Source: Marivita geojedonensis
Lineage (GTDB): Bacteria > Pseudomonadota > Alphaproteobacteria > Rhodobacterales > Rhodobacteraceae
Assembly (NCBI RefSeq): GCF_002115805.1
Contig: NZ_JFKC01000009.1
Location: 1-64,000 of the forward strand
Length of the DNA stretch: 64,000 bases
Reading direction: 5' to 3'
In this document: positions 40,059 through 44,761 of the stretch, piece after piece
Layout of the letters: each line of letters starts with the position of its first letter
How positions within the stretch are numbered: the first letter of the stretch is position 1
Notes under the pieces: model-generated
Told to the model about the DNA's origin: nothing
What the model saw: only the letters and a program-made list of their open reading frames with translations
Database searches by the model: none
Position numbers and translations under genes: made by a program

Positions 40059-40778
40059 ATGAGACCGATTCTGACCGCCTTGGTTGTGTTGGGCGTGGGC
40101 CTTGCCCCGGCCCATGCACAGCAGACCTGCACGCGGGATGCGATGGTGGTGTTCGACGGGTCCGGTTCGATGGCCGAGATGGGCTTCAATCTGTTGGACG
40201 AGCCGCGCATCTTTGATGCCCGGCGGGCGGTGCGCACGGTGATGCCGCAGGTCGCCCCGGCGCGGCGGATCGGTTTGGTGACCTATGGCTTCGGACGTCG
40301 CGAAAGTTGTGCCAGCGTTGTGGTGCGGTTTCCACCGGAGCCGGACGCGGCGGATCGGATCATTTCGCAGATCGAGCAGTTGCACCCGGCTGGGGAGACG
40401 CCTTTGACCGAAGCCATCGCGGCGGCGGCGCAGGTGCTGGATTACGAGAACAAACCCGGCGAGATCGTCCTGGTGACAGACGGCAAAGAGACCTGTGGCG
40501 GATCACCGTGCCAGTTGGCCGCCGATCTGGCGGCAGGGGCGGACATGACGGTGCATGTGATCGGCTTCCGGGTGCGCGGCGAACACTTCGCATGGCCCGA
40601 TCAGCCGCAGGACAGCTATATTGAGCCGGTGGCGCGGTGCCTCGCGGATCGCACCGGCGGCATGTATGTCAGCGCGGAAACGCTGGACGACCTTATTGGC
40701 GCGTTGCGGCAGACTCTGGGCTGCCAGATCCTGAGCGGGGTTACTTCCGGGCGTCCTGCCACGCGCGGGGTTCTTTAA
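40059..40778 (+). CDS. Secreted von Willebrand factor A domain protein
   Basis: A 239-residue protein. A signal peptide ([20 protein letters not shown]) precedes a vWA domain with the MIDAS motif [17 protein letters not shown] and [12 protein letters not shown]. The Cys pair in the later part may form a disulfide. It probably acts in the periplasm in metal-dependent protein contacts. The ATG at 40059 has the signal peptide; its 3' end overlaps convergent pyrE by 38 bp. Confidence 0.8.
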
Positions 40779-41524: not shown

Positions 41525-42562
41525 TCAGCGGCGCGTTACCGTGGGCAGACCGAGCATACGGGAGAACGACCAGCCCTTGCCTTTGGTCTCTTCGCGGCGG
41601 ACCACCAGCGGCAGGATCATGTTGGCCATGTGCCCATGTCTCGGGATCAGCGATCCGGAATAGGGCTTGCGGCGGCTGATCAGGCCGATGGGAAATTTCG
41701 CCATCCGGGCGTGGCGCGGGAAGATCGACTTGTCGAACGGTTCGCGCTTGCTGAGCAGCGGGATCGGGAAATTCGCCATTCGCGGACCACCCGGCATCAG
41801 CGCGTTGGTGCCCTGCTTGCCGTTGATCAGATGCGGGAAGGGCCAGTTGGCCATTCGCATGTGGCGCGGGAAGGCGAACCTGTCCCAGGGCTTTCGGCGG
41901 CTGATCAGCGGGATCGGCCAATTCGCCATCCGCGCGTGGCGCGGGAAGATGGAGCCGGTATAGGGTTTGCGGCGGCTGATCAGGCGGATCGGGAAGTTCG
42001 CCATGCGGGCATGGCGGGGGAAGATGGAGCCCGTGAACGGTTTGCGGTGGCTGATGAGGCCGATCGGCCAGTTCGCCATGCGCCCATGGCGGTCGATCAC
42101 CATGTCATCATAGGGTTTGCGACGGCTGATCAGCGGGATCGGCCAGTCTGCCATGTGGTGGCGTGTGTCAGACGGGTCTTTGCGACGGCTGAGCATGTAG
42201 GGGTGGTCGCTCATGACGCTCAGTCCACGCCCGTGCTTGTCCTTGACGAACACATCCTCGTTGAGATCACCCATGTCCACCGCGCCTTTGGCGGCGGCGA
42301 CGTTTCGGGCGATCTTGGCCACACCCAGCGGTTTGTATTTGCCGCGCACCATGAGAACGGCCCCGCCGGACTTCATGCGCGATGCATAGGCTTTGGCAGT
42401 GTCGGGCAGCACGTTTGCTTTTTCCAGACGGTCGGCCACGCCCTTCGGCTCTTCGTAGATACGAATGATGTCGGGCGACACTTTGTTCGTGTAGACGAGT
42501 TCGCGTTTTGCGGACCGGGCCTGATCGGCGCTGTCGAAGTACCGAGTGATGATTGTTGTCAT
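41525..42562 (-). CDS. 25-residue tandem-repeat protein coupled to pucC
   Basis: A 345-residue protein I cannot assign to a family. Residues 1-~110 form a small domain ([17 protein letters not shown]...) resembling stress-protein-type alpha/beta sandwich domains. Residues 137-311 are seven exact 25-residue repeats beginning at Met137, 162, 187, 212, 237, 262 and 287, with an eighth partial unit at 312. The consensus is [14 protein letters not shown]....FPRHAR, rich in Arg, Lys, His and Trp/Phe-Pro-Ile. No signal peptide or membrane helix. Its ATG 42562 overlaps the pucC stop as ATGA, so translation is coupled and it is the last gene of the puc operon. A role in LH2 assembly or regulation is inferred. 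Confidence 0.75.
41630..42154 (-). repeat. Seven 75-bp tandem repeats (25-residue units)
   Basis: Exactly 525 bp, seven units with no insertion or deletion between them, coding residues 137-311 of the repeat protein. The second, third and fourth units are the most alike at protein level; the fifth (Met237) has diverged in its second half ([10 protein letters not shown]). Confidence 0.9.
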
Positions 42563-43980
42563 GGTGCCTCCACCGGGTTGGATTGCGCCCGTGCCCCGGT
42601 GCGGGACCCGACGAGCGGGAGAATGATGAGGACAGCCACCACGAGGAACGCCATCTCCATCGAGAATACTACGTTGTAGGGTGTTTCGACCGAAAGGCCA
42701 TTGGCCTCGGACGGCAGGGCCACAACGGTGTCGCGGACCCATCCTGCCAGTGCCATGCCGATACCGGCCGCAGTGGCCTGAACGCTGCCCCAGGCACCCA
42801 GCGCCAGACCGACCTTTTCGCGCGGTGCGGCCCGCATGGTGGCTGTCAGGGTGCTGTGGCCGAAGAGACCCGCGCCAAGACCGATCATCAACGTTCCGGC
42901 AAGGAAGGCGGGTGTGCCGCCGCCATAGGCCGAAAAGATGATCGCGGCAAAGCCGGGGATGCCGATCAGCGCCCCGGTCAGAGACGTGGCCGATGGCGCA
43001 CCGCCATTGCCCAGAATACGGGACGCGACGCCAAAGCCGATGAGCGTTCCGCCTGCAAGCAGGGCAGTCAGCTTGGTGGTGCTGGCGACGGAAAGGCCAA
43101 GGGCCTCGCCGCCATAGGGTTCTAGCAGAACGTCAGCCATGCCGAAGCCGAACGTCCCCAGCGCGATGACCAAGAGAAGGCGCATCATGCCCGCATTCTG
43201 CATCAGCTGTGCCCAGGCATCGCGGAAGGCGATGTCGGGGGCCGCAGCCATCGCCTGAGCCCGGACGCGGTCACGGGCCTCCTGTTTCCACATGGCAAGG
43301 AAATTGACCGCGACGGTGACGACCGCAGAGCCCTGGATCACCTGGATCAAACGTCCGGGTGAGTAGTTTTCAAGCATCAGCCCGTAGATGATGGCGCTGA
43401 TGACCATGCCGAAGAGCAGCATGACATACATCAGGCCGACCACCTTGGGCTGGTCGGCCTCGTCTACAAGATCAGTGGCAAGGGCAAGGCCCACGGTCTG
43501 CACGATGTGCACGCCCGCGCCGACCAGGAGGAAGGACAGTCCGGCGGAACTGTATCCGATCCAGCGCGGGGCGTCGTAGGCTTCGCCATAGCCGGAGAGC
43601 ACCAGCAGAGCGAAGGGCATGATGGCAAAACCGCCGAACTGGTACAGCGTGCCTTTCCAGATATAGGGTAGGCGGCGCAGCCCGAGGGCCGATTTGTAGG
43701 TATCGGATTTGAACCCGATCAGGGCCCGGAAGGGGGCAAAGATGATAGGCAGCGCCAGCATCGTGCCGACAAGGCTGGCCGGAACCGACAGCTCGACGAT
43801 CATCACGCGGTTCAGGGTGCCGACCAGCAGTACCAGCGCCATCCCGACCGTCACCTGAAACAGTGAAAGCCGCAGCAGGCGGGACAGCGGGACCGTGTCC
43901 GATGCCACATCGGCAAAGGGCAGGTAACGCGGACCAATCGAGGCCAGTCGGGTCAGAACGATGCGACGGTAGTCGAACAT
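42559..43980 (-). CDS. pucC: LH2 assembly/BChl delivery protein PucC
   Basis: A 473-residue major-facilitator-like membrane protein of the LhaA/PucC/BchG-associated family needed for normal LH2 formation. About twelve helices are seen. Family signatures include TLNRVMIVELSVPASLVGTML, FAPFRALIGFKSDTYKS and GLRRLPYIWKGTLYQFGG. The protein length is typical. I chose ATG 43980 (MFDYRRIVLTRLA) with AAGG 8 bp upstream; an earlier start would add 33 residues lacking family similarity. The C-terminus overlaps the repeat-protein gene. Confidence 0.93.
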   Translation of the reverse strand: MFDYRRIVLTRLASIGPRYLPFADVASDTVPLSRLLRLSLFQVTVGMALVLLVGTLNRVMIVELSVPASLVGTMLALPIIFAPFRALIGFKSDTYKSALGLRRLPYIWKGTLYQFGGFAIMPFALLVLSGYGEAYDAPRWIGYSSAGLSFLLVGAGVHIVQTVGLALATDLVDEADQPKVVGLMYVMLLFGMVISAIIYGLMLENYSPGRLIQVIQGSAVVTVAVNFLAMWKQEARDRVRAQAMAAAPDIAFRDAWAQLMQNAGMMRLLLVIALGTFGFGMADVLLEPYGGEALGLSVASTTKLTALLAGGTLIGFGVASRILGNGGAPSATSLTGALIGIPGFAAIIFSAYGGGTPAFLAGTLMIGLGAGLFGHSTLTATMRAAPREKVGLALGAWGSVQATAAGIGMALAGWVRDTVVALPSEANGLSVETPYNVVFSMEMAFLVVAVLIILPLVGSRTGARAQSNPVEAP

Positions 43981-44094: not shown

Positions 44095-44415
44095 TTACAA
44101 CTCGGGTCGTAACTGTGACGGCTGGATCAATGCCTGCGTCGATGTGCCATCCGGAAGGATGATCGTCACTTCGAGGCTGCCATCCGCCTGCGGAACCACA
44201 TAGCTTGCTTTGGCGGTGTCGGCCTTCGGCGCAATCATCGTTGCCGCTGCCATATCGCCGCTTCCAAGCTCCTGACCGGACAGGAAATCCGCCACCCAGG
44301 AAGTGTTGCTCAGGACGGCGACGTGAACTGCGAAAGAGCCAACGGCCACCGCTCCCAGGAACACCGGAACACCCACGGCGGGCGGTACGACGAGCCACAT
44401 TTTTGCGTTATTCAT
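44095..44415 (-). CDS. pucA: LH2 alpha subunit PucA with C-terminal extension
   Basis: A 106-residue light-harvesting protein; usual PucA is 52-55. The N-terminal 50 residues are classic: MNNAKMWLVVPPAVGVPVFL, with Trp7, Pro12, His31 (AVHVAVL) as the BChl ligand, and Trp40. Positions 44-45 are Phe-Leu (DFLSG) where B800-850 types have Tyr-Tyr or Tyr-Trp. A ~57-residue tail (MAAATMIAPKADTAKASYVV onwards) follows into the periplasm; Rhodobacter sphaeroides puc2A also has a long tail. A ribosome site AAGGAGG overlaps the pucB stop. Confidence 0.93.
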   Translation of the reverse strand: MNNAKMWLVVPPAVGVPVFLGAVAVGSFAVHVAVLSNTSWVADFLSGQELGSGDMAAATMIAPKADTAKASYVVPQADGSLEVTIILPDGTSTQALIQPSQLRPEL

Positions 44416-44427
44416 GTGGAGCCTCCT

Positions 44428-44586
44428 TTACCCAAGCCACGGTGTGGACACGGCAACAAGGAAGTGCGCCAGCAGTGCGATGGCACCGAACACGCGCGTT
44501 CCGTCGATCAGGTAGCTGTGGACCTCCTCAGCTTCCCTCAAGGTCAGACCCGTCGGCCAGACCTTGTCTTCGTCGTCAGTGGACAT
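44428..44586 (-). CDS. pucB: LH2 beta subunit PucB
   Basis: A 52-residue light-harvesting polypeptide. [20 protein letters not shown] is the cytoplasmic head, His23 in EEVHSYL and the BChl ligand His41 in [15 protein letters not shown] are conserved. One membrane helix, ending in the typical PWLG. A strong ribosome site AAGGAGG precedes ATG 44586. First gene of the operon, 12 bp before pucA. Confidence 0.95.
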
Positions 44587-44717: not shown

Positions 44718-44735
44718 TGTAATAAAAATCTGACA
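44718..44735. promoter_or_regulatory. PpsR/CrtJ-type box 1 (TGT-N12-ACA)
   Basis: TGTAATAAAAATCTGACA, exactly TGT-N12-ACA, embedded in wider TGTGT/ACACA arms. It lies 132 bp upstream of the pucB start. PpsR/CrtJ represses puc, bch and crt genes in oxygen. Confidence 0.8.
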
Positions 44736-44743
44736 CACGCAAT

Positions 44744-44761
44744 TGTAATCTTTGGTTTACA
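44744..44761. promoter_or_regulatory. PpsR/CrtJ-type box 2 (TGT-N12-ACA)
   Basis: TGTAATCTTTGGTTTACA, the second TGT-N12-ACA, beginning 8 bp after box 1 ends. This 8-bp spacing permits cooperative PpsR/CrtJ binding as known at bchC-type promoters. Confidence 0.8.

Follow-up and report, generated by a model that had tools for sequence, protein, structure and literature searches.

The last gene of the puc operon of Marivita geojedonensis encodes a repeat protein that, as our searches support, represents an undescribed puc-linked family. Across related genomes this protein co-occurs with the light-harvesting complex LH2 rather than with phototrophy. The gene lies in the window, the stretch of 64,000 nucleotides analysed here. 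We suggest that the protein may be an accessory LH2 subunit, a convergent counterpart of LH2-gamma that would form a disordered ribbon on the cytoplasmic rim of the antenna, perhaps ligating extra pigment. We put the probability of this reading at a little under one half (about 0.48). An earlier sequence-only reading had named four partners for the repeats (pigment, lipid, LH polypeptide and RNA); of these, the LH ring is best supported by our data.

The repeat protein gene (41525..42562, minus strand) runs for 345 codons from an ATG at 42562 to a stop codon at 41525-41527. Its ORF and the Pfam assignments of its neighbours agree with the earlier placement of the gene at the end of the puc operon, with the repeats following a small N-terminal domain. 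The operon begins with pucB (44428..44586, minus strand; LH2 beta, 52 residues) and pucA (44095..44415, minus strand; LH2 alpha, 106 residues), both assigned by the Pfam LHC family; comparison of alpha chains shows F44-L45 and a long C-terminal tail in the latter. They are followed by pucC (42559..43980, minus strand), the major-facilitator-type LH2 assembly factor (Pfam PF03209, PUCC, E 7e-144), whose start codon is inferred, the listed ORF extending to 44079. The pucC stop codon and the ATG of the repeat protein gene overlap as ATGA, as had been claimed, and the overlap is preceded by a GGTGGAGG stretch that resembles a ribosome site. The operon is flanked by a phosphoribosyltransferase gene, which we read as pyrE, and an amidohydrolase gene, which we read as pyrC. 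A VWA-domain protein with a signal-like start (40059-40778, plus strand; Pfam VWA_2, E 4.3e-11) is encoded next to the operon's neighbour gene, and a similar VWA-type ORF is found beside pyrE in the Marivita genome G003.

A motif scan located two tandem TGT-N12-ACA sites of the PpsR/CrtJ type, 8 bp apart, before pucB (44718..44761). PMC10890935 describes PpsR/CrtJ sites of this form in puc promoters. The window contains 12 TGT-N12-ACA sites against 7.0 expected, and 12 were reached in 7 of 100 shuffles, so that the tandem pair alone is telling. Of 9 related puc promoters picked from the compared loci, 7 have such a pair.

Comparison with four orthologues from the same genus gave dN/dS values of ~0.07 to 0.22 for the repeat protein gene, indicating a working protein gene under purifying selection. 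The N-terminal domain is 86% identical to the window protein in Marivita cryptomonadis and 60% in M. hallyeonensis.

The protein consists of four parts. The N-terminal domain (residues 1-110; 42233..42562, minus strand) is followed by a linker (residues 111-136; 42155..42232, minus strand), which includes a degenerate stretch that looks unit-like in our reading of its sequence. Eight tandem 25-residue units, the fifth being a variant, occupy residues 137-336 (41555..42154, minus strand). The last part (41528..41554, minus strand) is the end of a C-terminal tail conserved in the alignments, which we read as the truncated start of a ninth unit. Over residues 137-336 the identity at lag 25 is 0.50, and in 2000 shuffles the best of lags 5-59 never exceeded 0.18. 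At the DNA level TRF detects a 75-bp array in the window with 4.3 copies above its threshold. The sequence-only reading had described seven exact 25-residue units. The spacing is indeed exact, each full unit having exactly 25 residues, but there are eight of them, apart from the short ninth start, and their sequences are only ~50% identical.

The layout of the array is conserved among relatives. From 223 units we derived the 25-residue consensus M-A-N-[WF]-P-I-P-L-[IL]-S-R-R-K-P-x5-[FI]-P-R-H-A-R, in which His23 is kept in 77%, Ser10 in 68% and Ser18 in 45%. Unit 5 is a distinct variant; the remaining 25-residue arrays in alignment A3 have it at the same place, with small changes. In the 22 members of this alignment that carry 25-residue arrays, the fifth-place unit reads [WV]-P-[FI]-P-x-L-[IM]-[ND] and the C-terminal end is GLPT or a near variant. 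The unit number of the 25-residue arrays is near fixed. Among 38 proteins whose array starts with such a unit, strict 25-residue steps chain eight units in 20 and seven in 6, the others for the most part being cut or broken, mixed, or of the 15-residue type. Lengths were compared for the 29 complete proteins of the 25-residue type, a set that excludes broken and contig-cut copies as well as the hybrid and 15-residue forms: 28 have 341-353 residues, and the other has 371.

Two further forms of the protein were found. In some relatives 15-residue units (MAKFPFAHIVPGHKY) replace the 25-residue ones. By our count, about two of these units take the place of one 25-residue unit, giving about 13 units and a total length of ~350-365 residues. 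In 43 such units His8 is present in 100% and His13 in 93%; these units, like those of the short form, were selected with patterns that fix some positions. The short form has ~190-230 residues with ~3 units of the type FWPMPLLS...SVIxGG, and Ser is present in 81% of its 31 pattern-selected FWP units. One locus (L008, the same as L049) encodes a hybrid in which 25-residue units come first, 15-residue units follow and the end is like that of the 15-residue type, which suggests recombination between array types. One short relative (L118 in G094) carries a different unit of ~25 residues (FGDFLFPLISKRKPWGLTVYKGTKR), so that rebuilding of the arrays seems to have happened repeatedly.

Tandem units of near-equal length are also what would be expected of a multi-core peptide precursor, cut in this case at the M-A unit starts. 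We regard this as extremely improbable: the unit number is near fixed, the link to LH2 is strict, and the flanking genes (a DnaB-type helicase, the VWA-domain protein, the phosphoribosyltransferase, the puc genes and the amidohydrolase) include no peptide-modifying enzyme or protease.

Searches of the window protein and its relatives against Pfam, NCBIfam and PHROGs returned nothing above the curated cut-offs, and the repeat protein matches neither PF03209 (PucC/LhaA transporters) nor PF00556 (LHC alpha/beta). Searches of the PDB with the single sequence and with a profile found no significant relative, and the plasmid collection contained no match. The protein had been proposed to be undescribed, and these four family and structure collections bear that out. 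A YflT/DUF1269-like stress domain was considered for the N-terminal domain and is not supported; with 13 members searched to a limit of E 10, no such Pfam match appeared. A literature search, with most subscription papers outside its reach, turned up no report of the repeat protein, nor of its presence in purified LH2.

The distribution of the gene was examined in a family sample of 394 genomes, in which holders were identified with a profile of the N-terminal domain. This profile matched in 48 genomes, PUCC in 168 and LHC in 165. The repeat protein is present in 46 of the 55 genomes with three or more LHC matches, in 2 of the 110 with one or two, and in none of the 229 without any (the first two classes differ with Fisher p 3.5e-29). 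Homologues are thus not common in genomes without puc, which supports the earlier proposal of a puc-linked protein. At least three LHC matches are an imperfect mark of LH2: the third match of G123 reads as LH1-like, and this genome was counted against the association. There are two exceptions. G138 has two LHC matches, the LH2 pair, on the same contig just before the repeat gene, and the genome is 84% complete; in G166 the repeat gene is broken up over different reading frames, and two ORF pieces share the PucC match. Nine LHC-rich genomes lack the repeat protein, namely seven with no relative behind pucC, G405 with pucBAC, and G123. In eight of the nine an LH2-type pucC is present, so the repeat protein is not a general requirement of LH2. 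Outside the family, a class sample of 318 genomes yielded two distant relatives (E 1.8e-10 and 1.7e-5), the third match being the window itself. These relatives (L100 and L101), from two other alphaproteobacterial families, are encoded beside LHC genes on the opposite strand, and pucC follows in one of them.

Adjacency to pucC was read for all 48 holders, using loci of the Marivita and family searches together with 20 regions. In 47 of them a copy of the repeat gene starts -29 to +106 bp from the pucC stop codon on the same strand (the copy in G166 is broken), and the exact ATGA overlap occurs in 26 of the 48. Linkage to puc in relatives, a further point of the sequence-only reading, therefore holds for all holders of the family sample except the 48th, which has a remnant. 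In this genome (G336; L124 4604-5811) the pucC match is shortened and its end overlaps the decayed gene; matches to pucB and pucA lie beside them, and the locus is a decaying puc operon.

Copies without pucC beside them were found in eight genomes (G017, G225, G417 and G433-G437). Two of these, G435 and G437, are additional to the 48 holders, and no copy other than the unlinked one was detected in them. The latter two genomes argue against strict linkage, not against a link to LH2. All eight have LHC matches, four in seven genomes and two in G437, where one of the two is of long-alpha size. A single TGT-N12-ACA site lies within 400 bp of the unlinked copy in 3 of the 8 (0.03-0.09 expected for each by simple shuffling), and the tandem pair in none of the 8.

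Within Marivita, the repeat gene is present in 11 of 17 genomes. Two LHC genes lie upstream of it in ten of the eleven holder loci, the eleventh being the window. The puc block and the repeat gene are absent together in all six non-holders, in which pyrE and pyrC are ~600 bp or less apart with no puc match between them. Two LHC matches remain in five of the six and none in G003. In G003 a C-terminal remnant of the repeat gene (L014 1501-1752) lies between pyrE and pyrC, the scar of a puc operon deletion.

A basic repeat protein with no homologue of known function might also be a regulator or an unrelated passenger of the puc operon, for example an RNA- or DNA-binding protein or a stress protein. 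This is very unlikely in view of the LHC genes in all eight checked genomes that have unlinked copies, the loss of the gene together with puc in Marivita, and the position of both out-of-family relatives beside LHC genes.

The alpha chains show which LH2 the repeat protein accompanies. They were obtained from 21 of 29 holder loci (the chains of L063 and L067 being identical) and from 6 of 7 non-holder loci with LH2-type pucC (L079 gave none). In the 21 holder loci the LH2 alpha chain has 100-123 residues as printed, mostly counted from an inner Met; the six non-holder chains have 52-67 residues from the start Met; the length of the L077 chain and the residue numbers are our own counts. L45 is present in all 21 holder chains, preceded by F44 in 17 and by Y44 in 4, the latter from Marivita-group loci. 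Repeat type and alpha variant did not match up by eye in Marivita, where 25-residue arrays accompany both F44 and Y44 chains. The long alpha chain (44095-44415 in the window) extends ~55 residues past the usual end in a C-terminal tail, which 21 of 21 holder loci and none of the 6 non-holders have. By the usual topology this tail would be on the periplasmic side.

According to PMC12654162, F44L45 is the motif of an 806-nm LH4-like antenna found in Roseobacter denitrificans and others including D. shibae; the single-peak roseobacter antenna near 806 nm is called atypical there, and its variants are said to invite more study. The window antenna is probably such an 806-nm LH4-like LH2. The puc operon of D. 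shibae comprises four locus tags, Dshi_2897-Dshi_2900, regulated with the photosynthesis cluster (PMC10890935). Its fourth gene probably encodes the short form of the repeat protein, because G075 resembles the D. shibae genome and has a short form 48 bp behind pucC.

We then considered the predicted structure. In an AlphaFold2 model, the N-terminal domain (residues 1-110) has pLDDT values mostly near 90 and a ferredoxin-like alpha/beta fold, and it looks like a generic version of this fold. The repeats are predicted to have almost no secondary structure, with ten-residue pLDDT means of 26-50. Foldseek searches with both models against solved structures gave no match at E<=0.001. The 200 residues of the repeat part contain 38 K+R against 9 D+E and 21 aromatic residues, and no TM-like stretch was found in it. 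The predicted disorder, the basic charge and the lack of a TM-like stretch would suit a ribbon in the cytoplasmic headgroup layer.

The same composition (basic, rich in aromatics and free of TM-like stretches) could fit a membrane organiser whose repeats bind phospholipid on the cytoplasmic face and determine the packing or spacing of LH2 rings, or membrane curvature, with no fixed contact to the ring. We consider this unlikely: the number of units and the place of the special unit 5 are conserved beyond what lipid binding needs, and in the loci compared the protein is confined to one LH2 type.

The main rival, to which we give a lower probability than to an accessory subunit and which we find somewhat doubtful, is a transient assembly factor. 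The repeats would hold alpha/beta polypeptides or bacteriochlorophyll while PucC acts, and the protein would be absent from the mature antenna. The gene is translationally coupled directly to pucC, not to pucBA, the folded N-terminal domain could dock to PucC, and disordered multivalent repeats would be apt for such a role. However, eight canonical LH2 genomes have pucC and lack the repeat protein, so it is not a general requirement of PucC. There are unlinked copies as well, and a near-constant unit number points to a structure of set dimensions more than to a loosely acting chaperone.

As an accessory LH2 subunit, the protein could work as follows. The N-terminal domain would be on the cytoplasmic side. 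The repeat part, having no fold of its own, would follow the cytoplasmic rim of the alpha/beta ring as an extended ribbon within the headgroup layer. In each unit, the [WF]-P-[IF]-P-L-[IL] segment may pack on the ring and the interface, and the R-R-K segment may contact phospholipid. The conserved His (Ser in the short relatives) is a candidate ligand of an extra bacteriochlorophyll or a contact of the B800 site. Translational coupling to PucC would put the protein on hand when rings are built. The short relatives are a weak point of the ribbon reading, since ~3 units could not encircle a ring. In addition, the ~13 units of the 15-residue form exceed the alpha/beta pairs of an LH2 ring, so an arrangement of one unit per pair cannot apply to every form.

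A bolder version, which we put forward only tentatively, is that these proteins are a second class of LH2 subunits that girdle the ring, one that evolved independently and was overlooked in a long-studied antenna. The long form would span the whole ring and help to make the 806-nm LH4-like antenna by adding a B800-site pigment, by fixing the ring size, or both. Roseobacters belong to the abundant aerobic phototrophs in the ocean. A widespread repeat protein that tracks LH2 and is encoded in the same operon would, if the accessory subunit reading is true, be a third component of the 806-nm antenna.

Known accessory polypeptides differ from the repeat protein in several respects. PucD and PucE of Rhodobacter capsulatus are small proteins that are not known to contain such repeats. 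They and the repeat protein are alike in being encoded by extra genes behind pucC. None of the eight canonical LH2 genomes has a relative of the repeat protein behind pucC, in line with the earlier claim that Rhodobacter-type puc operons lack it. PufX and the LH1-gamma polypeptides of Blastochloris and others are LH1 accessory polypeptides with transmembrane helices in LH1. They too are small additional chains that modify an antenna ring; theirs is LH1, whereas the repeat protein has no TM-like stretch and is linked to LH2.

The closest parallel is LH2-gamma of Rps. palustris, which has six repeats and lies as an extended ribbon with a serine-ligated BChl on the cytoplasmic side of LH2. Its authors describe it as confined to Rhodopseudomonas and leave its partial length unexplained (PMC9618040). 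They also report that Rps. palustris LH2 produced in a heterologous host lacked gamma (PMC9618040), so a gamma-like subunit is not needed for the ring. With 97 residues, six units of a 16-residue period in our reading (PDB 7ZCU chain S) and no N-terminal domain, LH2-gamma differs from the repeat protein, which has 345 residues, 25- or 15-residue units, an N-terminal domain and a gene behind pucC. Alignment of the two by hhalign gave a probability of 0.4%, a result equalled or surpassed by 7 of 200 shuffled gamma profiles; in PDB sequence searches, neither the window protein nor its profile retrieved 7zcu_S. In the absence of detectable common ancestry, we do not file the repeat protein as a member of the LH2-gamma family. 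Both proteins go with LH2, by genomic co-occurrence in the case of the repeat protein, and both consist of short tandem repeats with a P-L-I core. Both have no secondary structure, as predicted for the repeat protein. A location in the cytoplasmic headgroup layer has been shown for LH2-gamma and would be shared by the repeat protein if it is an LH2 subunit. The pigment ligand is serine in LH2-gamma; the candidate ligands in the repeat protein are His in the 25-residue units (77%) and Ser in the short relatives (81%). The repeat protein may therefore be a longer functional counterpart of the Rps. palustris gamma ribbon by convergence, and if this is true, ribbons of disordered repeats evolved repeatedly as a way of wrapping a light-harvesting ring.
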